DNA of 64,000 bases from Ephemerocybe angulata (taxonomy: Eukaryota > Basidiomycota > Agaricomycetes > Agaricales > Psathyrellaceae), in NCBI GenBank assembly GCA_013368325.1, contig JAACJK010000227.1, positions 310,001 through 374,000 on the forward strand, read 5' to 3'. Every line of letters starts with the position of its first letter. Positions within the stretch are counted from its first letter, which is position 1. A model generated the notes under the pieces. That model did not search any database. It was not told where the DNA came from and worked only from the letters and a program-made list of their open reading frames with translations. The position numbers and the translations under genes are program-made. This document shows, piece by piece, positions 4,242 through 51,705 of this stretch.

Positions 4242-7133
4242 ATGTGGCGACTACTTGAAAACGTCAATCGAGCGTTTTGGTGGGGATGGCAACTCGACGA
4301 GGGTGAGTTCTGTGCACAGGATTGACAACATAGGGCCCTTCATCTAACGCGTCCGTCACGTACTTCAGAGCCTGCCATCTCTCGGATAGTACCTACGGAC
4401 GAGCCCTTAGAACCTGTCACTTCTCCCATGATACCTCCACAACCTTCCTCGGAACCTACCCCCGAAGTAGCGCCTTCACAACCTCTCCCGGAGCCCGCTC
4501 CAGTCAACGGCCAATGGGCTCCACAGATCCTCTGTGGTAGCAGTCACAACTCGTTCGGCTCACTGGCTATCACGACCGTCCAGGGCAACATGATCATACA
4601 CCAGAGTGATTATGATGAACGTACGCCTTCATCCTATGTCCGCTCTGAAGATTTTTGTTCACTTTTTTCTACAGTGAGACGAGCTATCGCCGAAATGCGA
4701 AGAAGCATTCCAGCGATAGTGCGCCATAGCAATGAGAACGCGTTGGTTCTTACCGATGCGTTGGGAGAGACTCTGACTCTCCCGTGGAGTGTTGTGCCGA
4801 CCTATGAGGTTTCGTTAAATCTTTTTCATTTTAACTGAAGCATCTATTGATGATACCGGTTAAACAGGAGTTGAAACGACTGTTGGTGAACCATTTCATA
4901 GGAAAATTGGGAGAGCAGCGTGTCGCAGAGGGGCGTTATTGCATAGGACGGGCAGAAGGATCGGATGATGGATTGGTGGTCAGCGCCGAGCATTGGGTTA
5001 AAATTAGGGACGAGCGTGAGCAGCTGGTAATGAGCATGCTGATTGAACAGGAATTGGACAAGGAACTGAATAGAATGTGTCCAAAATGTGGGAGGACTAA
5101 GCTTGGGACATATGTGGACCAGGGGTGGCGTGTGTGGTATGTCGTTTCTCCTCAGACCTACATGGGAGTCACCTGTTGTCCTCACGTCGAGGCAGTCGGC
5201 GATGTAGGACTCGATATATTCTTCCAACAGACCTAAAGTTAGTGGATGAAGTCCCCGCCAAGCTAGAAGATCTGGAGGAAGTATTACAATTTCGCCATGT
5301 GCGAAAGCAGCCCATTGAAGTATGTTAACATATCTCCATCTTCACATGGAGAGAGTGGGTGCTCATAGCTTGGCGGCTCTTAATGCATAGAGTGTACGTA
5401 CTGTTCTGCCTCGGATACTGATAGTAAAGTGCTCACTGCTTGTGTTCTGAATCTATCCGATTTGAGCCTCTCAATTTACAGAGAGTAAGTCCCGTTGCGC
5501 CTCCGATACGAAGCGTCCGGTGCTCACCAATGGGGGCCTCTCAATTTACAGTATGTAAGTCCCGTTTCGCCTCCGATACAAAGCGTGTGGTACTCACGGA
5601 ACGGGGCTTCTCAATTTACAGGTGGTAAGTCCTGTTTCGCCCCAGATGCAAAGCGTGCGGTGCTCACGGATCGGGGGTCTCACAATTTACAGGGAGTGCG
5701 TCCCGTTTACCTCCGAATACGAAGCGTGTGGTGCTCACGGATCGGGGGCATGCATTTTACAGTTTGTGAGTCTTGTTTCGCCCCTGATACGAAGCGTGTG
5801 GTGCTCACGAATCGGGGTCTCTCATTTTACAGCGTGTAAGTCCCGTTTCGCCCAATACGAATTGTGTGGTGCTCACGAATTGGGACCTCTCAATTTACAG
5901 TCCGTAAGTGCTGTTTCGCCCGCGATACGAAGCGTGCGGTGCTCACGGATTGGGGTCTCCCAATTTACAGATTGTAAGTCCCGTTGCGCCCCAAATACGA
6001 AGCGTGCGGTGCTCACAGATCGGGACTTCTCAATTTATAGGAAGTAAGTCTTGTTTCGCCCCAGATACGAGGCGTGTGGTGCTCACGAATCGGGGCCTCT
6101 CAATTTACAGAATGTGGGTCCTGTTTCGCGCCCGATACGAGGCGTGCGGTGCTCAAGGGCTTCTCAATTTACAGATTAGACATGTAAGTACTGTTTCGCC
6201 ACTCATATGAAGCGTGCGGTGATCACGAATCGGGGCCTCTCAATTTACAGAACGTAAGTCCTGTTCCGCCCGTGTGTGTGGTGCTCACCTATTGGGGCCT
6301 CTCAATTTCCAGATAGTAAGTTTTGCTTCGTCCCGAATCCGAAGTGTGTGGTGCTCACGGAACGGGGTTTCTCAATTTACAGAACGTAAGTCCTGTTCCG
6401 CCCCCGGTACGAAGTGTGCGGCGCTCACGAATTGGGGCCTCCCAATTTACAGCATGTAAGTCCTGCTTCGTCCCCGACATGAAGCGTGCGGTGCTCACGA
6501 ATTGGGGCCTCTCAATTTACAGGCCGTAAGTCCTGCTTCGCCCCGGATACGAAGCGTGTGGTGCTCACGAATTGGGGCCTCTCAATTTACAGGCCGTAAG
6601 TGCTGTTCCGCCCCCAATACGAAGCGTGTGATGCTCAAGGATGGGGGCCTCCCAATTTACAGGATGTAAGTCCTGCTTCGCGCCCGATATGAAGCGTGCG
6701 GCGCTCACGTATCGGGGCCTCTCAATTTACAGGAGGTAAGTCCTGTTTCGCCCCGGATACGACGCGTGTGGTGCTCAAGAATCGGGTCTTCTCCATTTAC
6801 AGTTTGTAAGTCCTGTTCCGCCCCTGATAAGAAGCGTGTGGTGCTCATGGATCGGGGTCCTTGAATTTACAGCTTGTAAGTCCCGCTTCGCCCCCGATAC
6901 AAAGCACCCAGAAACCCGATAACTCACACTCTGGTGTTCTCCTTGCTCTCTAGATCCAGGAAAGAATGCGGGAACAAGCCCAATCCGAGTCCAGGTGTAG
7001 GTTCATTGCATGTATCCTGCGCTCATAACTTAAGAATATCCACGCAGTCGAAGAACTCGATGATCCAGACGAAGAACTCGACGACTCAGACGAAGAATTC
7101 GATGACTCAGACGAAGAATTCCGCCGGCCTTGA
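4242..7133 (+). CDS. ULD gene 1: ubiquitin-like domain protein with 22 micro-exons
   Basis: The predicted product is 346 aa from 29 exons. Large exons are 4242-4302, 4369-4620, 4675-4808, 4868-5136 and 5196-5319. Then come 22 micro-exons (5391-6875), then 6954-6996 and 7048-7133. All junctions keep frame. The order is: start MWRLLENVNRAFWWGW; a Pro/Glu-rich linker; LCGSSHNSFGSLAITTVQGN, typical of the segment before agaricomycete ULD domains; the ubiquitin-like domain with DALGETLTLPWSVVPTY; and a CPKC...CRRC zinc-binding pair. The chain then enters the micro-exon stretch and ends RFEELDD plus an acidic tail. The family assignment is from recalled motifs; these domains are usually presumed to mediate protein interaction. 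Exon lengths of 269 and 124 nt are identical in all three paralogues. The donor after exon 3 (gtttcg) is weak. A copia element lies 149 bp past the stop. Confidence 0.7.
5320..6953 (+). repeat. Micro-exon array 1: 70-bp intron units separated by single codons
   Basis: Units of about 70 bp each consist of a donor (gtaagt; also gtacgt, gtgcgt, gtgagt, gtgggt), a ctcac branch-like site about 25 nt before the end, and an acceptor ttacag or ttatag. Between acceptor and next donor lie exactly 3 nt. The one exception has 9 nt (att aga cat). Micro-exons start at 5391, 5482, 5552, 5622, 5693, 5763, 5833, 5901, 5971, 6041, 6111, 6175 (9 nt), 6251, 6313, 6383, 6453, 6523, 6593, 6663, 6733, 6803 and 6873. 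The first eleven decode as SRYVGFRSIEN and the last six as AADEFL. Intron length varies (59-68 nt, with indels of 1, 2, 6 and 8), yet exon length never leaves a multiple of three. There are no stops. Confidence 0.85.
7060..7130 (+). repeat. 21-bp minisatellite coding the acidic tail of ULD gene 1
   Basis: Three 21-bp copies (pattern gacgaagaactcgacgactca) encode EELDDPD, EELDDSD and EEFDDSD. Genes 2 and 3 have one copy and stop at the equivalent of the first (EELAD and EELDD then tag). Gene 1 has lost that tag and reads on to EEFRRP. Confidence 0.75.
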
Positions 7134-7713: not shown

Positions 7714-10700
7714 TTACTCAAGACCAAGAGCGAGACGGTGACGCTGTACAGCGGGTTTGGGGAGTGGTTTGGTGAAGATGTCGGCGATCATGTCGTTGGT
7801 AGGAAGGAAGTGAACCTCAATTTTGCCGCGCTTAATAACCTCTCGTATCCAATGCATCTTGATGTCGATGTGTTTCATTCTGCTGTGGTGTTCGGGGTTT
7901 CGAAGCACCTTGAGAGCAGATTGGTTATCGACCATCAGTCGTGAAGGACCTGTGACTGTAGTCCCAAGTTCCCGAATGAATGACCGCATCCAAATGACTT
8001 CACGTCCTGCCGAGGAGGCAGCAACGTATTCGGCCTCTGTCGAAGAGTCCGCAACGGTTGCCTGCTTCTTGGCAGACCAGCTAACAGCGCCTGTGCCCAT
8101 CTTGATAAGGAATCCAGAGGTGGATCGACGAGTGTCAAGGCATCCAGCATGATCCACATCGGTATATGCCTGGAAGAGTTCTGAGGACAGAGACTCGCCT
8201 TCATTGCGATAAGTGAGTCGTAAGTCCATCGTTCCCTTCAGATAGCGGAACAGATGCTTGACGGCCTTCCAATGGATTGGACCAGGGTTCGAGTTGAACT
8301 GGGCGAGCTTGGCGACGGAGTAGGCGATGTCTGGGCGAGTTCCAATGGCAAGGTACATGAGAGCTCCGACTGTGTTTATGTATGGAACAGTCTTCATCTC
8401 ACGTTGCTCCTGCTTGGAGAGATCGTACTTGGCAAGACTAGTGCCGCTGCCTGGATCCATAGGAGTTGCGACTGGTGTGCAGTTTTCCATGCGGAATCGT
8501 TTAAGGATATCGAGGATGTACTGGCGTTGGGAGAGGTGGAGTGTGCGGTTTTCGCGATCATAATTGACCTTGATACCGAGGAGGTAGGTGGTTGGGCCAA
8601 GGTCCTTGAGAGTGAAGACCTTGGCGAGTGATTCCTTGAGCCATTTGACCTTGTCCTGACTCTTGGAGATGATGGTGATGTCATCGACGAATACTGGTAG
8701 AGTGATTCGGATACCATCAGCTTCCCATACGTAGAAGCTGGGATCTGTTTTGATCTGGGTGAATCCCAATCGTTCGAGTTCCGCTGCTAGCTTCTGATAC
8801 CACAGTCGTCCGCTCTGTTTCAGGCCATAGATACCCTTCTTGAGGCGGCAGACCCATTTCGCTCCGTTGGGGCCTCTGATTTCAAAACCCTCAGGTTGAG
8901 TCATGTAGACCTCGTACTTGTCTTTGATCTCGCCGTTCAGGTATGCGTTGGAGACATCGATGGACTCGATGTATTCCCCTGCTTTAGCAAGAGCGGTACG
9001 AAGGGCAGTGAGACGAGCAGTAGGAGAGAAGATTTGGTCGTAGTCGACACCAGGTTGTTGGGAGTAGCCTTTAGCGACGAGGCGTGCCTTGTAGCGGTCG
9101 ATGGTGCCATCGGACTTGTGCTTGATAAGGAATACCCATCGAGAGCCAATTGCCTTCCTATCGTCTGGTAGCCTGACGATTTCCCAAGTGCCGTTGGCGA
9201 TGAGTGCGTCCATCTCTGTTTGACATGCAGCAGCCCAGAACTCATGGTCTGGTCGAGACATGGCTTCTTTCCAGCTGCGTGGGGAATCTTCTGGCCGTGT
9301 AGCAGCTCCGAAAGCATGTTCCATCTTGTCAGTGGCCATCATGAGAACCATTTCCACAGCTTCATCAGCGGGGATGTATTCTCCTATGTCATAGACGTCC
9401 ATGAGGGCTTGCATGATAGGAGTGGCGAATAGAGCTCTTTCAAGGTCGACGTTGTCATTGTCCCCGTTGTCTTCGTCTTCGAAGTCCTGCGCTGTGAGAG
9501 GTGGCGGATTAAACGGATTTTCATCATCCTTGTCACCCCCTTGATCCGCTGGCGGTTCACCCCCTTGACGTCGTGCAACTGGTTTGGTCGTTCGCCTCGT
9601 ACCCCCAGTTAGTTTGAAGTAATCAGGGACTGCTTTCTGGCGGACAGGGCGCGAGCCTTGTGCCACCATTGGCTGGGTAATGGGTTTCCGAGGGACAGGA
9701 GCAGGTGCAGAAGGAGGAGGAGCAGGAAACGTGGGAGCAGGGATAGGACGTTCAGGCGATGTAGGAGGAGTAGACTTTTGTGGCTCAGCTTTAGGTGTAG
9801 GCGAGGTAGGTGAAGTCGGGTGGAACTGTGGTCGAGACGCTGTTTGCTTGCCGAGAGCTTTCAGGTCCATGGTTTGGGAAGGTGTATGTGGTGGTGCCTG
9901 TTGGGTACTGCTGTTGTCCTCGTCATCATCGTCCTCATCATCCTCGTCATCCTCATCATCCTCATCATCCTCGTCGTCCTCGTCGTCCTCGTCAGATGAG
10001 TCCTCGTCTGATGGAGGTGCTCGTGGAGGTGCAGGAGGTGCAGGAGGTGCAGGAGGTGCAGGAGGTGCAGGAGGTGCAGGAGGTGCAGGAGGTGCAGGAG
10101 GCGGTGCGTCGTCGTCCTCATCCTCGAGGTCAGGCCAGATATCCCCAAGGCCAATGGGTGTGTGTGCCGGTGCCGGCGTAGTGGTCGAGAGACCAGGGAA
10201 TGTGTTCTCATCGAAGATGATGTCGCGTGAGATGTGTGCCTTCTTCGTGATAGGATTGTAGCACCTCCATCCTTTGTAGCCTGTTTCAAAGCCAATGAAG
10301 ATGCAAGGCTCCGTGTGAGATTGGAGGTTCTTGCGATCCTTCCGAGCGATGTTAACGAAAGCTCGGCAGCCGAAGACTCGATAGATGGACAAGTCAGGTT
10401 TCTGCTTGTGCCAGACCTCGTAGGATGTGGTTTTGGAGAGTGCTGATGAGGGTGTGGCATTCAAAACGTCGGTGAGATACAACACAGCCTGTGCCCAGAA
10501 GGATGCAGGGAGCTTTGCTTGGTTAAGCATGGCAATGACACCTTCAGCGAGAGTGCAGTTGAGGCGTTCAGCCACACCATTCTGCTGGGGTGTCACCTTG
10601 ACTGTGTGTTGGCGTGTGATGCCGCGATCTGTGCACCATTTTGCGAAGTCGTTCCCAATATATTCACCCCCTTTGTCGTCTCGAAGCTCCTTGACCTTTA

Positions 10701-12087
10701 ACCCGTGTACTCGTTCGCACTCAGCGACAAACTCCTGGAACTTCTGGAACACCTCTGACTTGCGCTTTAGAGCGTATACTCGTTTGAAGCGGGAATAGTC
10801 CTCGATGAAGGTGACCCAGTACTCGAAACCAGATGGTGTTTGTGGTAGTGGTCCGTGGACGTCGGAGTGGATTCGATCGAGGAGTCCGTTGGCGCGATGC
10901 TGAGAGAGAGAAGGGAAGGGGTCTCGGTGCTGCTTCCCTGCGATGCAGTCATTGCAGAAGTCCTTCATCGTCGTACCGTCCTTGACGAGTATCCCTGTGC
11001 CTAGCTCCTGTCGAAGGAGTGTGTCTAGACGATCCTTGCCTATGTGGCCAAGTTGCTGATGGAGCAGCTCCTTGTCTACCTTCGTCGTGAAGAACGCTGC
11101 TGACTGTGTGTTTATCAGCGTGGTTCCGTCGAGAGTGCCAGTGGTTCCGCGAATGGTAGCTGTTAGGATTAGCTGACCCTTCTTGAAGAACTCTAGTGTG
11201 GAGTCTTCGATGACGATCCGGACTCCGCAGTGACGAACAACGTATAGAAGAGAGAAGAGGTTGGATTGCAAATCAGGGACATATAGTACATTCTCGAACA
11301 CGACAGTCTGCCCGGTCCTCCCATTGATCCTCGGTGTAAAGTACACAGTACCCATCCCGATCGCCCATACAATCTCGTGATTAGCGAGTTTGATGGGGAC
11401 CTTCACCCTGACCATGTTACGGATCCACTCGCAATGGGGCGTCATATGTGAGGAAGCTCCTGAGTCTGTGTTCCATGATGAGTCAGTGGGTGTAGAGGGA
11501 ATTTGACGGGTGAGAGGACTTGCGATGTGAGCGACCTGTGCCATGAGGGCCCTCTCCTGCGGCGTGGCAGGAGACTGGGGAGCGACTTCAGCGACCTGAG
11601 CCTTTCCATTCTGGAAGCGACACTCCTCGTTGGTGTGCGAGTTGGAGCGATGGTACTTGCACTTGTAGGTCTTCTTGGGCTTGGACGAAGCCTGAAGAGC
11701 GGCAGAGGAGGTACCAGCAGCGAGGGAGGTGTTGCGAGCAAGGGAGTTGGCTTTGCGAAGGTGCTCGAGGATCTCAGAGGGGTCGGTTTCACCGTCGGTG
11801 GTGGAGATGTGGTTGAGCGTGTGGCGAAGGAGTTCGTCGTCCTTTCCGAGCCCGATGACGATCATGGCTGCGGAGATGTCGCGAGCGAGGTGTGCCGCAG
11901 TGTAGCCTGCATACCAGTCTGGTAGCTCGCTGTACACCGTTCGTTTCTCAGTGGCGTCACCAACTTTGATCTCCACTTCCTTGGACTTTCCCTTTGTCAT
12001 GTATGGAGCAGAGGTGAAGCAGTGAAGTGAGGCGTGCACCAAGGGCAACAGCCCGCGAGCCAAAGTCTTGATAGGACTCATCCTCAA
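7714..12087 (-). CDS. pol: Copia Pol polyprotein (end of Gag, PR, IN, RT, RNase H)
   Basis: This is a long open frame of up to 1457 codons. A CxxH...HxxxxC knuckle-like segment lies near residue 145. The aspartic protease motif DSGAS is near residue 206. Integrase has its HH-CC zinc region (QQLGHIG...CNDCIAGK) followed by the DDE core (HSDVHGP, DDKGGEY, NGVAERLN). A Pro-Ala and Asp-Glu low-complexity stretch follows (about residues 660-740). Reverse transcriptase has FVDDI near residue 1130 in place of the usual YVDDI. RNase H has STEAEYVA and DNQSAL and ends with IADIFTKPLP. Nothing looks broken inside the frame. It overlaps the Gag frame by 131 bp in another register, so a frame change of +1 type is needed to join them. 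Whether that is programmed or a mutation cannot be told here. Confidence 0.93.
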   Translation of the reverse strand: MRMSPIKTLARGLLPLVHASLHCFTSAPYMTKGKSKEVEIKVGDATEKRTVYSELPDWYAGYTAAHLARDISAAMIVIGLGKDDELLRHTLNHISTTDGETDPSEILEHLRKANSLARNTSLAAGTSSAALQASSKPKKTYKCKYHRSNSHTNEECRFQNGKAQVAEVAPQSPATPQERALMAQVAHIASPLTRQIPSTPTDSSWNTDSGASSHMTPHCEWIRNMVRVKVPIKLANHEIVWAIGMGTVYFTPRINGRTGQTVVFENVLYVPDLQSNLFSLLYVVRHCGVRIVIEDSTLEFFKKGQLILTATIRGTTGTLDGTTLINTQSAAFFTTKVDKELLHQQLGHIGKDRLDTLLRQELGTGILVKDGTTMKDFCNDCIAGKQHRDPFPSLSQHRANGLLDRIHSDVHGPLPQTPSGFEYWVTFIEDYSRFKRVYALKRKSEVFQKFQEFVAECERVHGLKVKELRDDKGGEYIGNDFAKWCTDRGITRQHTVKVTPQQNGVAERLNCTLAEGVIAMLNQAKLPASFWAQAVLYLTDVLNATPSSALSKTTSYEVWHKQKPDLSIYRVFGCRAFVNIARKDRKNLQSHTEPCIFIGFETGYKGWRCYNPITKKAHISRDIIFDENTFPGLSTTTPAPAHTPIGLGDIWPDLEDEDDDAPPPAPPAPPAPPAPPAPPAPPAPPAPPRAPPSDEDSSDEDDEDDEDDEDDEDDEDDEDDDDEDNSSTQQAPPHTPSQTMDLKALGKQTASRPQFHPTSPTSPTPKAEPQKSTPPTSPERPIPAPTFPAPPPSAPAPVPRKPITQPMVAQGSRPVRQKAVPDYFKLTGGTRRTTKPVARRQGGEPPADQGGDKDDENPFNPPPLTAQDFEDEDNGDNDNVDLERALFATPIMQALMDVYDIGEYIPADEAVEMVLMMATDKMEHAFGAATRPEDSPRSWKEAMSRPDHEFWAAACQTEMDALIANGTWEIVRLPDDRKAIGSRWVFLIKHKSDGTIDRYKARLVAKGYSQQPGVDYDQIFSPTARLTALRTALAKAGEYIESIDVSNAYLNGEIKDKYEVYMTQPEGFEIRGPNGAKWVCRLKKGIYGLKQSGRLWYQKLAAELERLGFTQIKTDPSFYVWEADGIRITLPVFVDDITIISKSQDKVKWLKESLAKVFTLKDLGPTTYLLGIKVNYDRENRTLHLSQRQYILDILKRFRMENCTPVATPMDPGSGTSLAKYDLSKQEQREMKTVPYINTVGALMYLAIGTRPDIAYSVAKLAQFNSNPGPIHWKAVKHLFRYLKGTMDLRLTYRNEGESLSSELFQAYTDVDHAGCLDTRRSTSGFLIKMGTGAVSWSAKKQATVADSSTEAEYVAASSAGREVIWMRSFIRELGTTVTGPSRLMVDNQSALKVLRNPEHHSRMKHIDIKMHWIREVIKRGKIEVHFLPTNDMIADIFTKPLPKPAVQRHRLALGLE
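9910..10110. repeat. Coding microsatellites in copia Pol
   Basis: There are two simple repeats inside the integrase-RT linker. The first is a tcctcatca-type run coding Asp/Glu on the minus strand (about 9916-10005). The second is a nine-copy ggaggtgca run coding Pro-Pro-Ala (about 10021-10103). Long plus-strand open frames across them are artefacts. Confidence 0.85.
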
Positions 12088-12460
12088 AGCCAGAGGACTT
12101 CATGCGGAGGGAGATGAGTTCTTGGAGGATGGTGATGCGGGAGCTGGAGTTCTTGGCCTCGTATTGGCCAAGGAGCGTGGTCCAGGTGCCAGGGAGATCG
12201 AGGATGGCGACATCGGAGAGGAGGGTCTCAGTCTGAGAGGCGTCAAGGGTGGAGCGAATGTAGCCAACAAGCTTCGAGCGGCGACCACGGAAGCTCTGGA
12301 TGGTGCGAACATCCGAGGTGGTTGGTTCCGGCTCGATGCCCATGAGGATGTCATAGGCATCGTACTCAAGCGCCTTGTTGATGCATACACGCTTCCATTC
12401 CTGGACGGTGTAGACATTGAGGTGAACGGGCGAAGTGGTGGTTTCGTTGGACGAGGACAT
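11957..12460 (-). CDS. gag: Copia Gag, N-terminal part
   Basis: The frame starts MSSSNETTTSPVHLN and continues through ILMGIEPEP and the helix-rich segment TLDASQTETLLSDVAILDLPG, characteristic of copia Gag (UBN2-type). Its frame closes at 11957. The continuation of Gag is in the Pol frame from about 12000. The true joined protein therefore needs a frame change in the overlap. The overlap lies where the two frames read HDKGK and MTKGK, over an a/g-rich stretch. Confidence 0.8.
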   Translation of the reverse strand: MSSSNETTTSPVHLNVYTVQEWKRVCINKALEYDAYDILMGIEPEPTTSDVRTIQSFRGRRSKLVGYIRSTLDASQTETLLSDVAILDLPGTWTTLLGQYEAKNSSSRITILQELISLRMKSSGFEDESYQDFGSRAVALGARLTSLLHLCSIHDKGKVQGSGDQSW

Positions 12461-14647: not shown

Positions 14648-17061
14648 ATGCCCTCTGCGCGCGCTTCACAGCGCGCCCATCTCAAGCGCCCTTCTACTCC
14701 TAGCACCTCCTAGCACACGCACAGCGCAGCCACAAGCACTTCCTTTGCCCTAATATGGCGCGATGCATCCCTACCAGACCAATTCCACGAGATTGAACAG
14801 CTGTACTTTAGCAATGTTGAATGTTGTGTCCTCCCGCGCACGCATTTCACAGGATAGCCCGGGCTTGCTGGAGGGACTGGCGCTGAGGGGCCAGCGCCCG
14901 CCGTTTATGGTGGTGGATTGTAGCGATAGAATATGTTTGAGGAGGGAAATGTTAGTTCGTGAGTCGTCTTTCTTCTTCCTTGCCTTTCCTCCCTTCCTTT
15001 CTCCTACCTACCTCCCACCTTCCTTTCGTTCGCTCTTAGTTTAGTTCGTGTCACGGTACTGTGGGCATGATACTGACGGATTGGTGTAGCAACGCAGTCG
15101 TAACCTATGCAGTCGGAACCCTCAAAGTCAAACACGTCGTCATAATGGGGCACTACGGCTGCGGCGGCATCGCAGTCAGCATGGCGCCTCTCCCTGAAGG
15201 ATACGCCGAGCGCTGGCTCGGGCATACCACCCTTCCCTCCCTTCCTTCGTCCCCTTTCTCCTCCTCCCATTCCCCCCCTCCCTCGTGCTCTTCCTCACCC
15301 CATTCTACCACCCCCTCCTCGGCTTCTTCCTCCGTGAGTTCCTCGAGTGCCAGCGGGCAAGGAGAGACGCTTTCGGCGCCGAAAGAGACCCCCGCGGACC
15401 TCGCAGTGCAGCGCTGGATCCTGCCTATCCGCAAGATCTACGAAACGAGTGGGCGGCCGGAGATCCGACAGCACCGTGAGCGCCTGCAGCGCCTTTTCTC
15501 CTCCCCGTCGTGGAGCGAACGTATCGCCCGAGTCTTGATGGGTGCGGAGCGAGCGGTAGCGAGCGATGCGACGCGGCAGACGGAGGGGAGTGAGTATGGC
15601 AAAGGAGAGGCGAGTGGGAAGGGGGAGAGTGGGATTGGGGAGAAGGGTGGGATTGGAGAGGTGACGCTGCATGATGGCGCGTTTAGAGCGTTGGTGGAGG
15701 AGAATGTGAAGGCCAATGTGTGGAGGCTTGGGAGGAGTCGGTGAGTTGCTTTCTTTCGTTCTCTTTTGTTCTGGTTTTGGACTTTGGTTGGGTCGTTGGT
15801 TGGGTCGTTGGTTGGTTGGTTCGTCGGTTTGGGTGTGGAGGTTCGTTCGTTCCTTTCTCTCGATCCTTCCTTCGCGATTTCGGTCGGGATTTGGGTTCGT
15901 CTCTGCGTTCTTACTCGCGTTCTCGCGCGATCGTGCGATCGTTCTTGCGTTTCGGCGGGTTATAGGTTATTGGGTGACGCTCGTGGATTGGTTCTGCTTT
16001 TGGGTGTTGTGGGGTCGGGATCGTGTCCTTCCTCGCGTTTGGCTTCAACTTTGAACGAGTTCACATTGTTGATTCTGCTCGTGCTCGTCGTTCATCTCTC
16101 TCGCTTTCCATCCTTCTGCCACTTCTGCCATTCTGCTTTGCTTGGGGGTCTTCACAACCGCGGATGCGGTCTCGTGGATACTACTCGAGTATGCCTTAGA
16201 CTGTATACATCCCTGCGTTCGAGCGCTTTCAACACTTTGCTTTATTCATTCGTTCGTTCCTCCCTTTCGTTCGATTGCCCGATTTTCCGATTTTCCTTGG
16301 TTTCGTGGGCGCTGCGGTGGGGAATGCATCGTGAGTCTGCTCTGCTGCGTTTATTATCTTGCTTTCGCGTTCTGGTAGGGTGATTATCGCCTGTGCTTTT
16401 TGCTGTCGGGGTTTAATCTTGGGCTTTTGGCTTCGTCCCGTTCGTCTTCTCCCCCGCTCGGTCGTTGAGCCGTTCGTTCGTCCTTCCTCTCTCTTTCGTT
16501 CATTTCTTTGTTCATTTCTTTGTTCATTCGTTCTGGCCTTCGTGTTGCGTGCCCAGTCGTGTCTATCCAGCATGACGATAATATCGTCTCGGGTATGAGG
16601 GTTGCTGTGTGTGACTTGCGAATGCGAATCCATCGAGTGATGGGTTCGATGGTGTGGGATACATCGCACTTGTTGCTCGTGTGGGGTCACCGCTCTACGT
16701 TGGATGCGTTCCAACCGAGGTTTTGTTGCCCGTGCCCTCCGTACTTTCTAGTGTGGTGCGCGCTTGTGCTGCATACCCATCTTCTCTTCCCCCCTCCCTT
16801 CCTCCGTTCACTAGCTCCCTACTCTCTCTCCATCGCATCTCCGAACTCAAAATACTCACTCCCCCTTCCCTATTCTAGCACCACGAAGCCTACGCCAAAG
16901 CCCTCTCCACGGACAAACCGCTGCACCCCGTGTACGTGCACCGGTGGGTGTACGACCTCGAGACGGGCGTTGTTAGCGATCTCGGCGTGAGCGCGGGGCC
17001 GCCTGGGTGGGTCCCGCCGTCGGGCGGGGTGCAGGGGTTTCCTGCTATGCGGGGGGCGTAG
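14648..17061 (+). pseudogene. beta-carbonic anhydrase copy CA2, deleted in the active site
   Basis: The leader region is reduced. The first core exon keeps VDCSD but then loses 67 bp (including Arg of CxDxR and the following IFDADPGTMF segment) at about 14933. This shifts the frame before the donor near 14960. Exon 2 (from about 15091) is well preserved, with MGHYGCGGIA, so the second zinc motif survives. A Ser-rich insertion follows, then the conserved block PADLAVQRWILPIRKIYETSGRPEIR. It ends at 15740, lacking the usual VIRE before the donor. The next intron is over 1.1 kb. The last exon (16879-17061) ends GFPAMRGA. The copy is non-functional as a zinc CA because of the frame break. Confidence 0.85.
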
Positions 17062-18366: not shown

Positions 18367-20636
18367 ATGTGGAAGGTTCTCGTAAACCCATTTCGATCGC
18401 GTTGGAAAGGAAGGAAAGGTGCTAGTGAGTTCCGTGTATAGAAAGTATACCGTGGAGCCATCCAGCTTATGGATACCACCACCTGTATAGGGCATACGGA
18501 AGAGCGCTTAGAGCCTATCGCTCCTCGCATAGTACCTCCACAGCCTTCCTCGGAGAACGCCCCTCATACAGCGCCTACGCATCCTCACTTGGAGCCTACA
18601 CCCCAGTCAACACCAACACAACCTTTCCCAGAGGATGCCTCTTCTTCAGCGCTCGCACAACCTCTCCAGGAGCATGACCCAGTATTTGTGCCTACGCAAC
18701 CTCCCCAGGAGCCGACCCGTAATTTAGCGGCGACAGGGACTCCCCCGGAAGCTACCCCTAATTTCGCACTTACACAACCTTCCCCGGAGCCCCCTCGAAT
18801 CGACGCCCAACAGGCACCACAGTTCTTCTGCGGCAGCAGCAACAACTCCTTCGGCTCACTGGCTATCACCACCGTTCAGGGTACACCAGAGTGATTACGA
18901 TGAACGTACGCCTTCATCTTATGTCCGCTCTGAAGATTTTGCTCCCTTTTTCTCTAGTAAGACGAGCTATCGCCGCAGAAATGCGAAGAAGCATTCCAGC
19001 GATAGTGCGCCATAGCAATGAAAACGCATTAGTTCTCACCGATGCATTGGGAGAGACTCTGACTCTCCCGTGGAGTGTTGTGCCGACCTATGAGGTTTCG
19101 TTAAATCTTTTTCATCCTAACTGAAGTATCTATTGATGATACCGGTTAAACAGGAGTTGAAACGACTGTTGGTGAACCATTTCATAGGTAAATTGGGAGA
19201 GAAGCGTGTCGCAGAGGGGCGTTATTGCATAGGACGGGCAGAAGGATCAGACGATGGATTGGTGGTCAGTTCCGAGGATTGGGTTAAGATTAGGGACGAA
19301 CGTGAGCAGCTGGTGATGAGTATGCTAATTGAGCAGAAATTGGACGAGGAACTGAATAGAATGTGCCCAAAATGTGGGAGGACTGAGCTTGGGACGTATG
19401 TAGACCAGGGGTGGCATGTTTGGTGGGTCCTTTCTCCCTGGAGCTACATGAGAGTCCCCTATGTCCTGACGTCGAAGCAGCCGGCGGTGTGGAACTCGAT
19501 ACATTCTTCCAGAAAACCCCAAAGCGAGGCGTCGGGGCACCGTCCGGGCAGAAGAGCCGGAGGAGGTTTTGCAATTTCGCCATATGCGAAAGCAGCCCAT
19601 TAGGGTGAGTTAACATATCTCTCCATCCTCACCTGAATGTGATAGGCGGTCTGCCTTCAATGGTCATACTTAACTCACGGCTCCATATGGTCCTTGGATT
19701 TATAGAAGGTGAGTTCTGTTTCGTTCCGAATCCCGATAGTTGACTACTCACAGCTCGCTCACCGTTCGGGGCCTTTCACTGTATAGCCTGTAAGTCTCAT
19801 TTCGGGCTGCATCCGAAGCGTGTGGTGCTCACGTATCGGGGCCTCTCAACTTACAGTGGGTAAGTCCTGTTTCGCCCCCGATATAAAGCGTGTGGTGCTC
19901 ACGAATCGGGGCCTCTCAATTTACAGGCCGTAAGTCCCGTTTTGCCCCAGATACCAAGCGTGTGGTGCTCACAGATTGGGGCCTCTCAAATCTACAGGAA
20001 GTAAGTCCCGTTTCGCCCGATATGAAGCAGGTGGTGCTCATGGATCGGGGCCTCTCAATTTGCAGCTTGTAAGTCTTCTTTACCCACGATACAAAGCCTG
20101 TGGTGCTCACGGATTGGGGCCTCCCAATTTAAAGATGGTAAGTCCCGTCACGCCCCAGATGCAAAGCGTGTGGTGCTCACGGATCGTGGTCTTTCAATTT
20201 CCAGGCTGTAAGTACCGTTTCGCCCAATCCGAAGCGTGTGGTGCTCACGGATCGGGGTCTCTCAATTTACAGTTTGTAAGTCCTGTTTTGCCCCAGATGC
20301 AAAGCGTGCGGTGCTCACAGAACGGGATTTCTCAATTTACAGGACGTAAGTCCCATTTTGCCCTGAATGCGAGTGGCATGGGTCGTGGTCCCTCGGAGAA
20401 TAAAGTGTTTGCTCACGAATCGGGCCTGTCAAACTACAGCGTCGGCGCGTAAGTCATGTTTCCATTCGGATACCTCCAGCACCCAGAAACCAGATAACTC
20501 ACACTCTGGTCTTCTCCTTGCGCTCTAGAAAGAGATGTGGGGACAAGCCCGAGCCAAGGCCAGATGTAGGTTCATTACATGTATCCTGCATCCACAACTT
20601 ATAAATTTCCACACAGTCGAAGAACTCGCCGACTAG
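18367..20636 (+). CDS. ULD gene 2: ubiquitin-like domain protein with 11 micro-exons
   Basis: The predicted product is 357 aa from 18 exons. Large exons are 18367-18424, 18491-18880, 18958-19094, 19154-19422 and 19481-19604. Then come 11 micro-exons (19706-20448), then 20529-20565 and 20617-20636. The start is MWKVLVNPF, followed by a longer Pro/Thr linker, FCGSSNNSFGSLAITTVQG, the ULD core DALGETLTLPWSVVPTY and the CPKC...CRRC pair. It ends RFEELAD. An 11-bp deletion removed the NMIIHQ segment and destroyed the frame of the old exon-2 end (a tga would follow). An earlier gtacac donor at 18881 lies in the same phase and restores the frame, so I place the junction there. That junction is inference. 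Confidence 0.65.
19605..20528 (+). repeat. Micro-exon array 2
   Basis: The intron unit is the same subfamily as in array 1 (start gtaagtcctgtttcgcccc, end ggggcctctcaatttacag). Micro-exons start at 19706 aag, 19787 cct, 19857 tgg, 19927 gcc, 19998 gaa, 20066 ctt, 20135 atg, 20205 gct, 20273 ttt, 20343 gac, and 20440 with 9 nt (cgt cgg cgc). They decode as KPWAELMAFDRRR and lead into KEMWGQARAKARFEEL. One acceptor is aaag (20134). Spacing is mostly 68-71 bp; the last units are longer (97 and 89 bp). Confidence 0.82.
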
Positions 20637-27351: not shown

Positions 27352-30300
27352 ATGTGGTCGATGCTTTCAGGCCTATTTTGGTCGTGCCTTTCGGGTGGGG
27401 GAGCAACCGGTGAGTTCTTGGCACAGAATTATTTCCGCATTATCCTACATCTAAAGAAAACCACCCACATATAGCGCCTACGGATCACCCTTTAGAGCCT
27501 GTCGCTCCTTGCATAGTGCCTCCTCAGATATACTCGGAGCCCGCCGCTTGCCAGAGCCTACGCGCCGCCCCCCAGGAGCCTACCCTCCATTCAGCGCCAA
27601 CGCACCCTCCTCAGGATTCTGCCAGCCATACATTGCATGCGCAGCGTCCCCCAGAGACTGACCACCTGGAGCCGGCCGGGAATTGTGCGCCAACACGGCC
27701 ACTTTCGGAGCCCACTCCATTCGACTCGCAACAGACGTTGCAGATCCCCATGGAACCCGGTCCAGAGCCTACCCCTCCTTTCGCGGCTACGCAGCCTCCC
27801 CCGGAGCCCGCTCCAGTCTTTGCTCAAGGGCCCCAGTTCTTCTGTGGCAGCAGGAACAACACGTTCGGCCAAGTAAACATTACGAACGTCCATGGGAACA
27901 TGAACATGCACCACAGTGACCAGTTGAATGAATGTACGTCCTCATATCGTGTCCGCTTCGAAGAATTGCGTTCGCTAACTTCACTTATATGAACCAGTGA
28001 TACGAGTCGCCGCTGCAATACAAAGAAGCATTCCAGCGATGGTTCGTCACAGCAACAAGAATGCATTGGTCCTTACCGATGCGTTAGGAGAGACCATCAC
28101 TCTCCCATGGAGCGTTGTCCCAACCTACAAGGTAATGTGAAATAACATGTTCCAACTGAACGACCTTTCGATGATATTGTATAAACAGGAGTTGAAACGA
28201 CTGTTGACCAACCATTTCAGGGGTAAAGTCGGAGCGCAGCGCGTCGCGGATGGGCGTTATTGCTTGGGACGGTCAGAGGGATTAGAAGATGGAATGCTGG
28301 TCAAGGCCAGAGATTGGGAGAATATCAGGGACGAACATGTGCAGCTGGTAATGAGTATGCTGGTTGAGGAATATGAAAACGAGGATCTCGAGAGAACGTG
28401 CCCGAAATGTGGCATGACCGAGCTTGGGACATATGTCGACCAGGGGTGGCACGTGTGGTGCGCCATTTTTCCTCGGAGTTATGTAAATATTACCGTACTG
28501 ACAGTGCTGTAGCCGGCAGTGCAACACTCGATTTCTCCTTCCAGGGCTGAGGAGAATGAGAGGCGAAGAATCCGCGCCTGTCGAAGATCCACGGGAGGTA
28601 CTTCAATTTCGCCATGTGCGAAAGCAGGGGGTTTCGGTATGGTTATATATATCCCCATCTCAACATGGGTCTAAGTGCTCACGGCTTGACGTTTCTGTCT
28701 TTGAATGCACAGTCGGCAAGTTGTTTCATCTCGGTACTGATCATAGGGCGCTCACAGCTAGTATTGAATCAATAGTGTACCGACGTGAGCCACCGACCGC
28801 CATTAGTTCTGATGGTCGAGTACTCACTGCTTGCGGTCTTGGCTTGATAGTATGTAAGTCCTGTTCCCCGCGAATACAAAAACTGCGGTCCTCAAGAATT
28901 GATATTTTGAATATACTATAGCGCGTCAGTCCTCGTTCGACCTGAATGCTCATACCTGGGTGCTCACGTCTCGTGCTTGAATTTATAGTTCGTGAGTCCT
29001 CTCGCGTCCTGAATGAATCTTCATGCCTGCTCACAGATTTGGGTCACTCAAATTAAAGCTTGTGAGCCTTGTTTCTCTCGAAATACGAAGAGCGTGTGCT
29101 TACAGCTCGGGGTTTTGAATTTATAGGAAGTAAGTCCCGCTTTGCACCAGAGGCAAGCACTGTAGTTCTCACGGATTGGGGCCATTCAATTGACAGGAAG
29201 TAAGTCCTGTTTCGCACCAACACGAAGAGCGTGATTACAACTATCGTTCTTCTATTTATAGGAAGTAAGTCCTGTCACTGTCTGCCGCGAATACAGGAAT
29301 TGGGGTGCTCACGGATTGGGGTTGCTCAACGTATAGCGCGTCAGTCTCTTTCGTCCTGAATGCTCATACCTGATAGCTCACTACTAGGGCCTTGAATTTA
29401 TAGGAAGTAAGTCCTGTTTCCCCCCAATACGAGGATTGTGATGCTCACGGAGTCGGTGTCTCCAATGTGTAGCGTGTCAGTCCTCTCTCTTCCTGAATCC
29501 TTATAACTGCTCACAGATTGGGGTCATTAAATTGAAAGCTTGTAAGCACTGTTTCTCCCGAAATTCAAAGGGTCGCGCTCACAGCTCGGTTCTTTGAATT
29601 TACAGGAGGTAAGTCCTCTTTTACACCGAATGCAAGCAGCTCACAGATCGGGGGTTTGCAATGTATAGAGCGTTAGTCCTTTTTCACTTGGAACTTGGAA
29701 GTCTCATACCTCAGAGCTCACGGCTCGAGTCTTTCGATTTATAGGAAGTAAGTCCGGTTCCACCCCGAATACAGGAATTGGGTCGCTCACAGACTGGCGT
29801 TTTAATGTATAGCATGTCAGTCCTCTTTAGTTATGAATGCTCGTACCTGAGTGCTCACGGCACGGGCTCCGAACTTATAGCAAGTAAGTCCTATTTCACC
29901 CCGAATGCGAACATTGTGATGCTCACGAAACCGCTGATATTAATGTATAGGCCGTCAGCCCTCTCTCGTCCTCAATCCTCCCTTATCCTTGCTCATGGGT
30001 TGGGATCATTCGATTTACAGATGGTAAGCCCTGTTTCTCCCAACATACAAAGGGCGTTTTCTCACAGCTTGAGTCTTTAAACCCATAGGAAGTAAGTCCT
30101 ATTCCACCCCGAATCCAGGAATTAGGGAGCTCACGGATTACGGTTTATCAATGTATAGCATGTCAGTCCTCTCTCAGCCTGAATACACATACATGAATGC
30201 TCACATCTCGTTCCCTGAATTTATAGCGAGTAAGTCCTGTTTTGGCCCGAGTACAGAAATTGGTGGTGCTCACAGATTGGGGTCAATTTACAGATTGTAC

Positions 30301-32937
30301 GCCCTTTTTTTCCAATAATACAAAGCGCGTGTGCTCACAGCTTGGGTATTTCAATTCATAGGAAGTAAGTCTTGTTTCATACCGAACACAGAGCATGTGC
30401 TCACGCCACGGGTGTTTTGATTTACAGGAAGTTAGTCCTATTTCGTCCCGAACACGAAGATTGTGGTGCTCATGGATTGGGCCCGGGGTTTCAATGTCTA
30501 GCTCGTCAGCCCTATTTTTTCCTGAATGCTTATATCCAAGCACTCACCGCTCGACCTTTGAATTTATAGAAAGTAGGTCCTGTTTTGCCCCGAATACAAA
30601 GATTGTGGTGCTCACGGAACCCGCGTTACCAACGTATAGCACGTAAGTCTTGTTCCGCCCGAAGTACAAAGAGTGTGGTACATCGTAGCAAGTAAGTCCT
30701 GTCTTTACGCCAGTGCGCAAATTGGGGTGCTCAGTGATCGAAGTCTTTACAGGCTGTATGTCCGATTTTGCTTTGAATTCTCACTGCTGAGACCTTCTGG
30801 CTCGCTTCCCTGCCATTTACAGGACGCAGTTGGTCCTGTTTCGCCCCGAATACCGAATATGTGGTACTCACAGATTGTGATCTTTGAAACTCCAGCGTGT
30901 AAGTTTGTTTCACCCGAATACAAGAGTTGGGTGCTGACGGATTGGAGGTTCTCAATTCACAGCGCGTAAGTCTTGTTTCGTCCCAAATACGAAGAGTGTG
31001 GTCTTCACAGGCCGCGGCCTTTCAATTTAGGGAGTAATGCTGCGGCACGCAAGCCAGCGTGTAAGTCTGTTTCACCCGAATACAAGAGTTGGGTGCTGAC
31101 GGATTGGAGGTTCTCAATTCACAGCGCGTAAGTCTTGTTTCGTCCCAAATACGAAGAGTGTGGTCTTCACAGGCCGCGGCCTTTCAATTTAGGGAGTAAT
31201 GCTGCGGCACGCAAGCCAGCGTGTAAGTCTGTTTCACCCGAATACAAGAGTTGGGTGCTGACGGATTGGAGGTTCTCAATTCACAGCGCGTAAGTCTTGT
31301 TTCGTCCCGAATACGAAGACTGTGGTGTTCACGGGTCGCGGCCTTTCAATTTATAGAAAGTAAGCCCTGTTTTGCATTGACTAAGGGCTCACGGCCCTGG
31401 GTTCTTCATCCTCCAATTCACAGATCACACACACACACACAGATAGTAAGTCTCGTTTCGTCCCGAATTCCGGTAGCTGAGTCCTTACGGTTTACGTCTA
31501 TAGCAAGTAAGCCTGTTTGCCCTGAATCCTCGTTGCGGAGAGCTTATGGCTCGAGTTATTTCAATCCACAGCTCGTACGTCCGGTCCTGTCTCAAACCCT
31601 GATAGCTAAGTCCTCACAATTTGGGCCTCTGAATTAATAGACCGTGAGGCATCTATCGTCCCCGTATCTTCATAGATAAGCTCACAGTCCGGGTCTTCGA
31701 TCTTTGGAAATAATAGCAAGTAAGCCTGTTTGTCCTGAATCATTATAGTTGTGTGCTTACGCCCAGTGAGAAGTCCGTCTGCGCCGAGAGGCTCAGATCG
31801 GCTGACAGCGGAAAGTGAGTATGGGAGTCTGCCCTCACAGGCCCATGTCGGACCCTGGGTCTTTATATACATTCATAATACACTATATAGCCCTTTTTCT
31901 CAAAATTCTACTCACTTTCTTACATATATCTACTGAGAGATATCGTTTTCTTGAGATCTAAGCTTCGCGCAATCCGCAAGTTCTGTTGAAAGGCGTGCTG
32001 TGGCGAGTGTACCTAACATACGTCATGCGCTTAAGTCGCGCACTTGGGTGTACCCGTGCACTGTCACTCTCTTCCTCTCCCATCGTTGCAGCACCATCCC
32101 GCCGCAGCGAATTCGCTCCTCCTCTTACTCAAACCCTCCCACACACGCCTGCTCCCGAAGTGCTCTACGATATACGCAGGCATGCACTGGCGATGTCATC
32201 GGCTCGACCTTCACCCAACTCGTAGCCATCATCGCGCTCGTGGGGGCAAGACGCGCGTCGGCGGTGTGCGTGGATATGTGCCATGCGCATGCAGCGGGGT
32301 ACGATGTTGGTACGCGGGAGGGGTGGGGGCAAGGTGGGAGGGGACTAGTGAGGTCGGCGTTTTGGTGAAGTGTTCCTTCTTATGCTGGCGTCTTGAATGA
32401 TTCCTTATCGCATGGCACATCCTGTCAGCCATCTCGCCTTTCGTACGACTGGCGGGGCCACTCCAACCTTATTACACGCTCTTCCTCGTCAACCTCAAGT
32501 CAACCTCGCCGACCTCTTTGATCCCAACCCTCCTTCTCCCCCCTTGGCGTGCATCACCTGCACTTTGCCGGCTATCACCTCCTCTCCCCATTCCCGCTGT
32601 AGGTTCCCTTGCTGTATGTGATATGCACCCGCAGCGCGGCGGTCCCTTGAGCGATAGGGCCATGCTAGCCGGTTGTTCCTCCCGCACTCTGACGGGCCAG
32701 TTTTTGAATGCTTTGGAAATTTGTATCTATATTATTACATGCCCAAATCTGATTAGATTTTTCCATTCCACTGTCGTCCGATCTGGGCCTTTCTGAGAAG
32801 ATATGGACTGTCAAAAAGATGCCCACAGTGCTTTCAAGTGCCTCAGAACGCTTTTTCAAGCGGAGGCTGAGATTACCGCTCTCGTCCGCTCTGGGAAGAT
32901 TGACTTCTCACTGGGGCTTACGCGCTTACGGCCTTTT

Positions 32938-32986
<49 letters not shown>

Positions 32987-34151
32987 ATATGCAGCTTGTA
33001 CGCCCACCTCTGTCCCCATTGCCCAATTTTCACGACTGATGGCTGGGAATTCAAATTTATAGGGGGTAAGTGGTTGTTTCGCTTCAAATACCTGTCGTGT
33101 ACTCACGGATTGGTGTCCTTCTATTTACAGCGTGTATGTCCTGTCTCATTTCGCGTCCTCGTATCTGAGTGCTCACAGCTCGGTCCTTTGTATCTACAGG
33201 CTGTAAGTCGTGTTTTCCGATGGGAAAATGCGTGGTACTTACGAATCGGTGTCCCTATTTACAGCGTGTAAGTCCTGCTTTGACTCCCATACGAGAAGTC
33301 CATTGCTCATGTATCATCGTATTTCTATTTTATAGCTTGTAAGTCCTGTTCCTCCACGAATCCGCATAGCTGGGGGCCTAATGCACACATATTTAAAATT
33401 CTTTCGTAGGAAGTAAGTCTTATTCCGTCCCAAATTCTCATACCTGAGTATTCACATCTCGTGCTCCCTAAAATCATAGATTGTAAGTCCTGTTTTGCCC
33501 CGGTACGAGGATTGCAGGGCTCACGGATTGGGATCTTATAATTTATAGGGTGTATGTCCTGTTTCGCCCTGAGTTTTCTGAGATGATGGCTTACGGCTCT
33601 GGCCTTTCAACATATAGAGAGTAAGACTTGCTGCTTCAAGTCCTCCGACTGAGTGCTCACAACTTGGGCCTCCGTCAATGGACGTTATAGTTCGTACGTC
33701 CTCAGTCTAGCTTTACCCCGAATCCAAATAGTTGAGGTCTCACGGCTCTCTCAATTTACAGCTTGTATGTCCTCGGGTATCCTGACTCCTCATAGTTGAG
33801 CGCTCACAGCTTGGGCCCTGGGACTTATAGGATGTAAGTCCTAACTACCCCCGAAATATAAAGACCGTGATGTTCATGGCTCGAACTCTTTTGAAATATA
33901 GACAGTACGGGCTGTTTTATCCCCAACGGTTCCCATTGTTTGCTCATAGACCGGGCTCGATGAATTTACAGGTTGTAAGTTGTGCTACAACTCGGAAGCC
34001 CCCAGCACACCGGATAACTCACCCCCAATGTTGTCCTTGCACTCCAGAGAAAGATGCAAGAAGAAGACTCTTCCAGATGTAGGTTCACTTAATGTACCCT
34101 GCGTTCACAACTCATGAATACTTCCGCACAGTCGAAGAACTCGACGACTAG
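27352..34151 (+). CDS. ULD gene 3: ubiquitin-like domain protein with 59 micro-exons
   Basis: The predicted product is about 443 aa from 66 exons over 6.8 kb. Large exons are 27352-27409, 27475-27933, 27998-28131, 28189-28457 and 28513-28636. Then come 59 micro-exons (28713-33974), then 34048-34078 and 34132-34151. The start is MWSMLSGLFWSC. A long Pro/Glu linker is followed by FCGSRNNTFGQVNITNVHGN, the ULD core DALGETITLPWSVVPTY and CPKCG...CRQC. The chain then passes through the micro-exon region and ends RKMQEEDSSRFEELDD. Every large-exon junction keeps frame, with lengths 269 and 124 nt shared with the paralogues. The micro-exon part has a leucine-zipper-like heptad pattern. One intron (31720-32994) is enlarged by inserted DNA. 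The large exons are well supported; splicing of the array needs RNA data. Confidence 0.65.
30896..31381 (+). repeat. 162-bp higher-order triplication inside array 3
   Basis: Starts at 30896, 31058 and 31220 are 162 bp apart, with near-identical sequence. Each period carries the codon cgc and, at the junctions, a 30-nt stretch (31031-31060, 31193-31222) between a tttag acceptor and a gtaagt donor. The 30-nt stretch decodes as GVMLRHASQR without a stop. The inserted coding length per copy (33 nt) keeps frame. Confidence 0.8.
31720..32994 (+). other. Enlarged array intron with inserted DNA and poly-T tract
   Basis: The regular array stops after the caa codon at 31717 and resumes with ctt at 32995. 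The 1.27 kb between has no array units and no gene I recognise. At its right end a run of about 50 T (32935-32985, one C) directly precedes gatatgcag and the ctt codon. It therefore sits where a polypyrimidine tract belongs. Short frames within (about 32000-32660) look random. Confidence 0.55.
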
Positions 34152-44934: not shown

Positions 44935-45484
44935 TGTGGCGAAGACGCCGGCTGATGTCGGACGAGCGACGAGCAGAGAGCAGAGAGCAGAGGAGCAGAG
45001 GTCGGACGAGCGACGAGCAGTGATGCAGATACAAGGGCTGTATAGTCAAAGGTAAATAGAATACAGGGAATAGGAGCGAAGCGACTATGTACCTGTATAG
45101 TCAAAGAGATCAAGTGGGGAATAATGAACGAGTAGCTACGAGTATATATGTGTCCAGATGATCTCGAACGAAAATAGAACAATAGAATGATCCAAAGAAC
45201 AATAGAGTCCATATGAGTCGATATGACTAAAAGGCAGCGCGCGGGCAGTGCGCCTGAGAACAAAGGTGTGAACAAGGTGTGAATGTGCTGTGCACGAGAA
45301 TAAGAAGCACGAACGTGCTGTGCATGAAGTGAGGGGAAGGCTCAGAAGAGCGAAGGCAGTGTGAAGGTGTGCAAGGGTGTGCAAAGGTGTGCAAGAGTGT
45401 GCAGGAATGCGCACGAATGAATAGTAAAGGAAGAAATGAAAGGAAAAGAAGAGAAAATAGGTAGGCTGACCGGTGTTCACGACA
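44935..45484 (-). repeat. Gypsy 3' LTR
   Basis: This 550-bp repeat runs from tgtggcgaag to gttcacgaca. It contains a short direct repeat (gtcggacgagcgacgagcag twice, about 44960 and 45001) and a gtgtgcaag minisatellite (about 45363-45410). Confidence 0.95.
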
Positions 45485-51155: not shown

Positions 51156-51705
51156 TGTGGCGAAGACGCCGGCTGATGTCGGACGAGCGACGAGCAGAGA
51201 GCAGAGAGCAGAGGAGCAGAGGTCGGACGAGCGACGAGCAGTGATGCAGATACAAGGGCTGTATAGTCAAAGGTAAATAGAATACAGGGAATAGGAGCGA
51301 AGCGACTATGTACCTGTATAGTCAAAGAGATCAAGTGGGGAATAATGAACGAGTAGCTACGAGTATATATGTGTCCAGATGATCTCGAACGAAAATAGAA
51401 CAATAGAATGATCCAAAGAACCATAGAGTCCATATGAGTCGATATGACTAAAAGGCAGCGCGCGGGCAGTGCGCCTGAGAACAAAGGTGTGAACAAGGTG
51501 TGAATGTGCTGTGCACGAGAATAAGAAGCATGAACGTGCTGTGCATGAAGTGAGGGGAAGGCTCAGAAGAGCGAAGGCAGTGTGAAGGTGTGCAAGGGTG
51601 TGCAAAGGTGTGCAAGAGTGTGCAGGAATGCGCACGAATGAATAGTAAAGGAAGAAATGAAAGGAAAAGAAGAGAAAATAGGTAGGCTGATCGGTGTTCA
51701 CGACA
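51156..51705 (-). repeat. Gypsy 5' LTR
   Basis: This is the promoter-side 550-bp LTR. It differs from the left LTR at a few sites, for example agaaccatag for agaacaatag, and gctgatcgg for gctgaccgg. Confidence 0.95.

Follow-up and report, generated by a model that had tools for sequence, protein, structure and literature searches.

The stretch of DNA analyzed here (the window) covers 64 kb of contig C13 of the Ephemerocybe angulata genome (C13:310001-374000) and contains a forward-strand gene whose first five exons encode an N-terminal region, a ULD_2 domain, and a CPKCG...CRRC cysteine motif. The domain (Pfam PF22893) covers residues 125–209 with an E-value of 2.5e-13, and a score of 50.5 bits against a curated cut-off of 24.5 places this gene, the one to which the cut-off was applied, in the ULD_2 family. 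Exon 5 ends in RKQPIE in phase 0 and is separated from the last two exons by an array of intron-like units alternating with micro-exons. We refer to this gene as gene 1 and to its array as array 1; the exon model with its translation and a chain parser (described below) provide the following features. A structure predicted for P0001 had a mean pLDDT of 51.9, and no conclusion was drawn from it.

4242-4302, 4369-4620, 4675-4808, 4868-5136, 5196-5319, + strand: exons 1-5 of gene 1 (4242..5319), encoding the N-terminal region, ULD_2 domain, and cysteine motif
5320..6953, + strand: array 1, 23 intron-like units of 59-88 nt and 22 micro-exons
5391-5393, 5482-5484, 5552-5554, 5622-5624, 5693-5695, 5763-5765, 5833-5835, 5901-5903, + strand: micro-exons 1-8 of array 1 (parser)
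5971-5973, 6041-6043, 6111-6113, 6175-6183, 6251-6253, 6313-6315, 6383-6385, + strand: micro-exons 9-15 of array 1 (parser, except that 6175-6183 replaces its 4-nt choice)
6453-6455, 6523-6525, 6593-6595, 6663-6665, 6733-6735, 6803-6805, 6873-6875, + strand: micro-exons 16-22 of array 1 (parser)
6954-6996, 7048-7133, + strand: last two exons of gene 1, encoding IQERMREQAQSESR and then an acidic tail, with the stop at 7133

In each unit of array 1, a GT donor and an AG acceptor enclose a CTCAC-like branch site. A preliminary description of this DNA had reported a 70-bp tandem repeat between exon 5 and position 6954, and a repeat of period 70 is indeed found at 5466-6905 (20.7 copies). The same description counted 22 introns in 5320-6953; the array is there, but the parse yields 23 introns with 22 micro-exons between them. 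Direct reading and the parse both reproduce its spacing of 3 nt in 21 of the 22 cases, and the other can be read as 9 nt. This odd micro-exon (6175-6183, ATTAGACAT) is bounded by a CAG acceptor, while the next TAG acceptor would leave 4 nt at the same site, which is the parser's best-scoring solution; of the two, only the 9-nt reading, adopted here, keeps the frame. Together the micro-exons of array 1 decode to SRYVGFRSIENIRHNINHAADEFL, 24 codons that are all sense and that, in the spliced exon model, are in frame with RKQPIE upstream and IQERMREQAQSESR downstream. The residues I9, I12, I16, A19, and F23 fall where they had been placed in support of an amphipathic helix, but for array 1 alone the periodicity of such a helix is weak (permutation P = 0.12).

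Searching the genome (58.7 Mb in 232 contigs) with one ULD exon returned 15 places, and in seven of the eight that were read beside the site an array occurs at the same exon boundary, following an RHVRKQ-like motif. The eighth, a paralog on contig C214, has neither an array nor the flanking RHVRKQ-like motif in the 1.5 kb read. The seven arrays belong to paralogs A, 1, B, C, D, and E on contig C13 and F on contig C52, and range from 10 to more than 50 micro-exons; C and D lie inside the same 64-kb window as gene 1.

Contig C13: array A, 10 micro-exons
Contig C13: array B, 28 micro-exons
19605..20528, + strand: array C, in a second ULD gene, 12 introns and 11 micro-exons (10 of 3 nt, one of 9 nt)
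28637..34047, + strand: array D as a whole, in a third ULD gene
28637 to about 31716, + strand: first part of array D, over 40 micro-exons with diverged introns, its end ambiguous in the parse
About 1.1-1.3 kb, + strand: middle of array D, non-unit sequence
32998-34047, + strand: second part of array D, 15 introns and 14 single-codon exons
30892..31353, + strand: block repeat inside array D, 162 bp x 2.9 at 98%
Contig C13: array E, 12 micro-exons by the parser, 13 by eye
Contig C52: array F, 17 micro-exons

The 162-bp block in array D consists of several units duplicated together. DNA searches with the units of gene 1 match contig C13 only, and those with arrays E and F reach no other array, E matching in addition an 82-bp fragment on contig C117; because the search skips common words, these match counts are lower bounds. 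The layout is nevertheless intact in the old arrays E and F, where every parsed micro-exon is 3 nt long (12/12 and 17/17). A unit-model search of 13 sequences gave 112 matches, all in arrays, with a model built from units of the same sequences. In neither the DNA nor the pattern searches did we find near-identical introns spread over many genes, as is typical of introner-like elements.

The parser scores donor, branch site, and acceptor and leaves exon length free between 1 and 45 nt. It requires GT or GC and AG, scores G+5 and the branch bases without requiring them, and mildly prefers intron lengths close to 67 nt and a distance of about 25 nt between branch site and acceptor; its splice-signal weights, like the helix and hydrophobicity scales used below, are general-knowledge values. 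Its penalty of 0.2 per exon nucleotide favors 1 over 3 nt, so the predominance of 3-nt exons is not created by the parser. Over the seven arrays, 152 of the 158 internal exons are 3 nt long, three are 9 nt, and there is one each of 6, 4, and 2 nt, the last at the end of D's first part, where the parse is ambiguous; exon length is therefore a multiple of three in 156/158. Dinucleotide-preserving shuffles of array 1 yielded at most 3 three-nt exons, compared with 21/22 in the real array, and the maxima for the other arrays were similarly low (E, 4; D, 4; F, 2; C, 2), with multiples of three making up 30-34% of the shuffled exons (30 shuffles for D and 100 for each of the other four arrays). Intron lengths are under no such constraint: 126/158 are not multiples of three, and retention of an intron would break the frame, by length or by a stop, in 147/158 cases. 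The arrays share with micro-exon genes a run of short symmetric exons but not the exons of about 6-36 nt that carry repeated or coding information.

The signals of a U2-type intron (GT donor, branch site, AG acceptor) are present unit by unit, with one GC donor after the first micro-exon of array D. An unguided alignment of 45 units from F, E, D, 1, and C, out of 166 parsed introns, has as its invariant columns G1, T2, G5, the branch T and A, and the final AG, the GT and AG being requirements of the parser. Among units of 55-75 nt (52 from D, 11 from E, 16 from F, and 64 from young arrays), the diversity of the branch T and A is zero in F (16 units), as opposed to 0.46 in the intron body; the corresponding values are 0.04 and 0.46 in D and 0.18 and 0.53 in E. 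The branch A lies 25 nt from the acceptor in 55/64 young units, 21/52 in D, 5/11 in E, and 11/16 in F, a clustering that counts for little because the parser favored this distance. Donors are exactly GTAAGT, a full match to U1, in 105/166 array introns, compared with 0/5 of the ordinary donors of gene 1. The exon base preceding the donor is G in just 15/152 cases, for which pairing on the intron side probably compensates. As for structured RNA in the array introns, this candidate was rejected given the lack of an Rfam match (array 1) and of a conserved fold, and an inverted-repeat hairpin suspected by eye had no covariation support.

The codons behave differently from the introns around them. 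In the young arrays, diversity at the three exon positions is 0.67, 0.75, and 0.71, where the maximum is about 0.75, compared with a mean of 0.19 over intron columns. In 78 pairs of units whose intron bodies differ by less than 10%, the proportion of differing codon sites is 0.42 for the 5' exon and 0.47 for the 3' exon, while for the most variable intron triplet in the same pairs it is 0.167; the smaller of the two flanking codon differences, 0.23-0.30 of sites, still exceeds the introns, although by less. These diversity and pair comparisons include 62 and 60 units, respectively, of normal length only. Either the codons change faster than the adjacent introns or the introns are homogenized while the codons escape, and both readings are compatible with selection for different residues.

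We assembled 151 codons over the arrays, adding by eye CAA in D and TGG in E, which the parser missed, and leaving out about 20 codons of D where the parsing is ambiguous (its opening two micro-exons, the part beyond GCT that holds the 162-bp repeat and perhaps 30-nt exons, and the final portion ahead of the non-unit sequence). The set is rich in E, R, A, and L, and array D decodes in part to YRFLEEERERLESEHQAMEHRIEELKHQA, which by eye resembles a coiled coil. Mean helix propensity is 0.400, compared with 0.633 +- 0.049 for codons shuffled column by column, which keeps the preferences of each codon position, and none of 5000 shuffles was as low. Forty control registers inside introns have a mean of 0.719, but start at 0.432, so that the best of them is not far above the exons, and this counts against the helix argument. 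With repeats collapsed per array the bias persists in old (P = 0.0018) and young (P = 0.003) arrays; when each of the 45 distinct codons is counted once it is not significant (P = 0.22). Taken singly, the eight array pieces show no significant hydrophobic moment (P = 0.10-0.70), and the pooled hydrophobic periodicity peaks at 100 degrees with marginal support (P = 0.043, one of 13 angles tried). Stop codons are absent from the 151 codons where about 3 are expected, but at P = 0.03-0.04, and with stops also absent from 10/40 intron registers, this test is too weak to carry weight.

Taken together, the length, signal, and codon results suit translated single-codon exons better than a discarded array. 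We consider it quite probable, on the evidence of the genomic sequence, that the 23 intron-like units of array 1 are spliced out one by one and that the 22 micro-exons, 21 of them single codons, add 24 codons to the mRNA of the ULD_2 gene, and from these results we infer that the micro-exon codons are included in the mRNA. The added codons would likely extend a C-terminal helix. The proposal of the preliminary description, a protein segment whose codons each occupy an exon of their own, is thereby supported, as four predictions derived from it held on six further arrays: splice signals are kept where intron bodies diverge, exons are multiples of three, codons are protein-like, and the layout is common to relatives. 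The third held by residue composition and not by the absence of stops.

A special case of unit-by-unit splicing is that inclusion varies, with skipping of units letting one gene produce many helices that differ in length and phase in place of a single fixed protein. Since 156/158 micro-exons are multiples of three, subsets would keep the frame, and micro-exons elsewhere are often alternative in the accounts cited here (PMC8293314, PMC7392893). The strong and uniform donors of the arrays, most of them GTAAGT, argue instead for constitutive use, and we regard variable inclusion as a tentative possibility, somewhat less probable than not.

Alternatively, the whole of array 1 could be removed, as one long intron or stepwise with the triplets discarded, so that exon 5 joins 6954 and the triplets are never translated. 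The outer splice sites are good (GTATGT at 5320 and CTCTAG at 6953), and the frame is also kept when the array is skipped entirely and exon 5 joins 6954 directly. Such removal would leave unexplained why 152/158 exons are 3 nt long, why the triplets of old and young arrays alike are biased toward helix residues, and why inner donors, branch sites, and acceptors are kept amid diverging intron bodies; we therefore consider it improbable.

A different origin for the arrays, in which mobile copies of an intron entered a helix-coding exon between codons and units were not duplicated, also seems unlikely. It would account for introns that are alike flanking codons that are not, and introner-like elements do exist in fungi (PMC4457414). 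However, it would take more than 150 head-to-tail insertions, each one codon from the next, which is implausible, and the 138-, 162-, and 208-bp periods point to duplication of blocks. Outside the arrays the searches gave a single fragment, the 82 bp on contig C117, and no uninterrupted helix exon was seen, the sole array-free paralog read (C214) being without the flanking motif.

It is very improbable that the arrays are decaying minisatellites in dead genes. Exon 2 of gene C is 11 nt shorter and 1.1-1.3 kb of foreign sequence interrupts array D, so that these two genes may be broken, but the neighboring exon is under purifying selection (dN/dS 0.11-0.41 at dS 0.29-1.34, for 15 pairs among the six genes other than F), and splice signals are kept in the oldest arrays. 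Least credible of all is a host of small RNAs, with array introns carrying them as in snoRNA clusters and the triplets as spacers, for which tandem introns with SNORD115/116 are the precedent in the cited text (PMC11608373), given that 5300-7000 has no Rfam match up to an E-value of 1 and that the consensus fold has 5 pairs (-2.7 kcal/mol) for 56 of the 62 young units and none for 45 diverse units.

The deposited gene models inspected, judged by their translations, stray at the arrays. P0002 and P0003 apparently include one micro-exon and continue into the intron that follows it, while P0017, the model of gene C, reads intron. A protein from a second E. angulata assembly, P0012, is probably the counterpart of F and reads ...EIM-I-E-HSVIKYAG..., a hint that it may contain the residues of F's two leading single-codon exons and then a stretch of intron. 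Relatives in Coprinellus and Candolleomyces are gene predictions and so neither confirm nor deny arrays there.

Both micro-exon genes and isolated 3-nt exons are already known. The micro-exon genes (MEGs) of schistosomes, with exons of up to 36 bp and 9 bp also mentioned, resemble the arrays, as far as the cited accounts go, in their rows of short symmetric exons, a frame that survives skipping, and duplicated gene families (PMC8293314, PMC4015677). As described there, a MEG exon carries sequence (PMC8293314, PMC4015677), whereas here almost all exons are single codons and it is the intron that is repeated and conserved. Isolated 3-nt micro-exons are reported for homothorax and troponin T of Drosophila and for rodent NCAM, and 1-nt exons for plant APC11 and VPS55, demonstrating that a spliceosome is able to splice in exons of only 1-3 nt (PMC7392893, PMC8831610). 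In the account that covers rice, such exons are single or at most two are adjacent (PMC8831610), in contrast to the 10 to more than 50 consecutive ones found here. With regard to how introns multiply, fungal introner-like elements are likewise near-identical introns multiplied in a genome but, as they are described, are not arranged head to tail at one-codon spacing (PMC4457414). In Zymoseptoria tritici, tandem duplication within a gene is given as part of the less than 1% of single intron gains (PMC4457414). A potato RdRp gene has an intron described as created by tandem genomic duplication, as proposed here, but through one event and not as an array (PMC4974935).

The arrays are likely an extreme new variant of the micro-exon gene, with exons below the size characteristic of that class. 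Exons of aphid bicycle and megacycle genes exceed one codon in length, and the introns of these genes do not, to our knowledge, form a 70-bp tandem repeat. These genes share with the arrays a very large number of micro-exons per gene, more than 100 in megacycle by the cited account (PMC9168663). A search of the PMC literature, whose scope excludes most subscription papers, showed no consecutive single-codon exons among the matches listed.

Under unit-by-unit splicing, the spliceosome would remove each unit of about 67 nt singly, by intron definition, using donors that are mostly GTAAGT. Removal would probably proceed in sequence, with a single codon left behind at every step, as a 3-nt exon offers scarcely any room for two complexes at once. 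Once translated, the codons would form a helix after the RHVRKQ-like motif, joining the part with the ULD domain and cysteine motif to the tail. Unequal crossing-over of 70-bp units, one or several at a time, may lengthen and shorten the arrays, and we propose that the higher periods of 138, 162, and 208 bp found in them are traces of this process. Because each unit contributes 3 nt of phase-0 exon, gaining or losing whole units would preserve the frame and add or delete complete residues. Under selection for helix residues the codons would then diverge and the introns remain similar.

With some confidence, if less than we place in the splicing itself, we therefore suggest that the minisatellite may act as a protein-editing device, in which expansion, contraction, and skipping add, remove, or choose helix residues singly and in frame. 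Splicing would hide 67 of every 70 bp, and each gene would have grown its own helix, from 10 to more than 50 residues long. As the deposited models stray at these genes, similar arrays could sit unseen in other genomes. If the reading of the arrays as an editing device is correct, these genes would be the first known case of a sequence spelled out in single-codon exons, and they would set a new limit on exon density, with dozens of consecutive 3-nt exons and one intron per amino acid. How a spliceosome deals with introns that lie nearly back to back would become a testable question. They would also provide a route for the tandem multiplication of introns inside a gene and an example of a protein segment that evolves residue by residue through repeat number.

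Array D, which lies in the third ULD gene (28637-34047), contains a 162-bp block that is present in 2.9 copies at 98% (30892-31353). This block includes two single-codon exons as well as a possible 30-nt exon, and it is probably a recent duplication of multiple units. The array is also interrupted by approximately 1.1 kb lacking likeness to the units (31843-32990), the end of which is a T-rich run of 52 bases (32934-32985); directly past it the units start again, with the acceptor GATATGCAG. The interruption resembles an antisense insertion of a poly(A)-tailed piece.

An 82-bp piece of a unit of array E, a paralogous array elsewhere on the same contig, occurs on another contig of this genome, C117, and comprises branch site, acceptor, codon, and donor; no array was found in the 240 bases read there (C117:2421421-2421660).

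In gene C, the second ULD gene in the window, exon 2 is 11 nt shorter than its gene 1 counterpart (at about 18880-18905). Barring a difference in splicing, the reading frame is thereby shifted, and gene C may be a pseudogene. The EEAAFRHVRKREVEL motif occurs twice in P0008, a ULD protein from a second E. angulata assembly, and this doubling may be a sign of another misread gene model.

Other open frames in the window are as follows.

7714-12099, minus strand: 1461 residues, just downstream of gene 1; resembles a Copia-type retroelement polyprotein in its motifs
921-1727, 15040-15744, and 23345-24199: three mutually similar frames spaced through the window, which we take to resemble pieces of carbonic anhydrase

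One tandem-repeat set is present twice, at 44957-45452 and 51178-51673 (offset 6221 bp), which points to a probable duplication of this part of the window.
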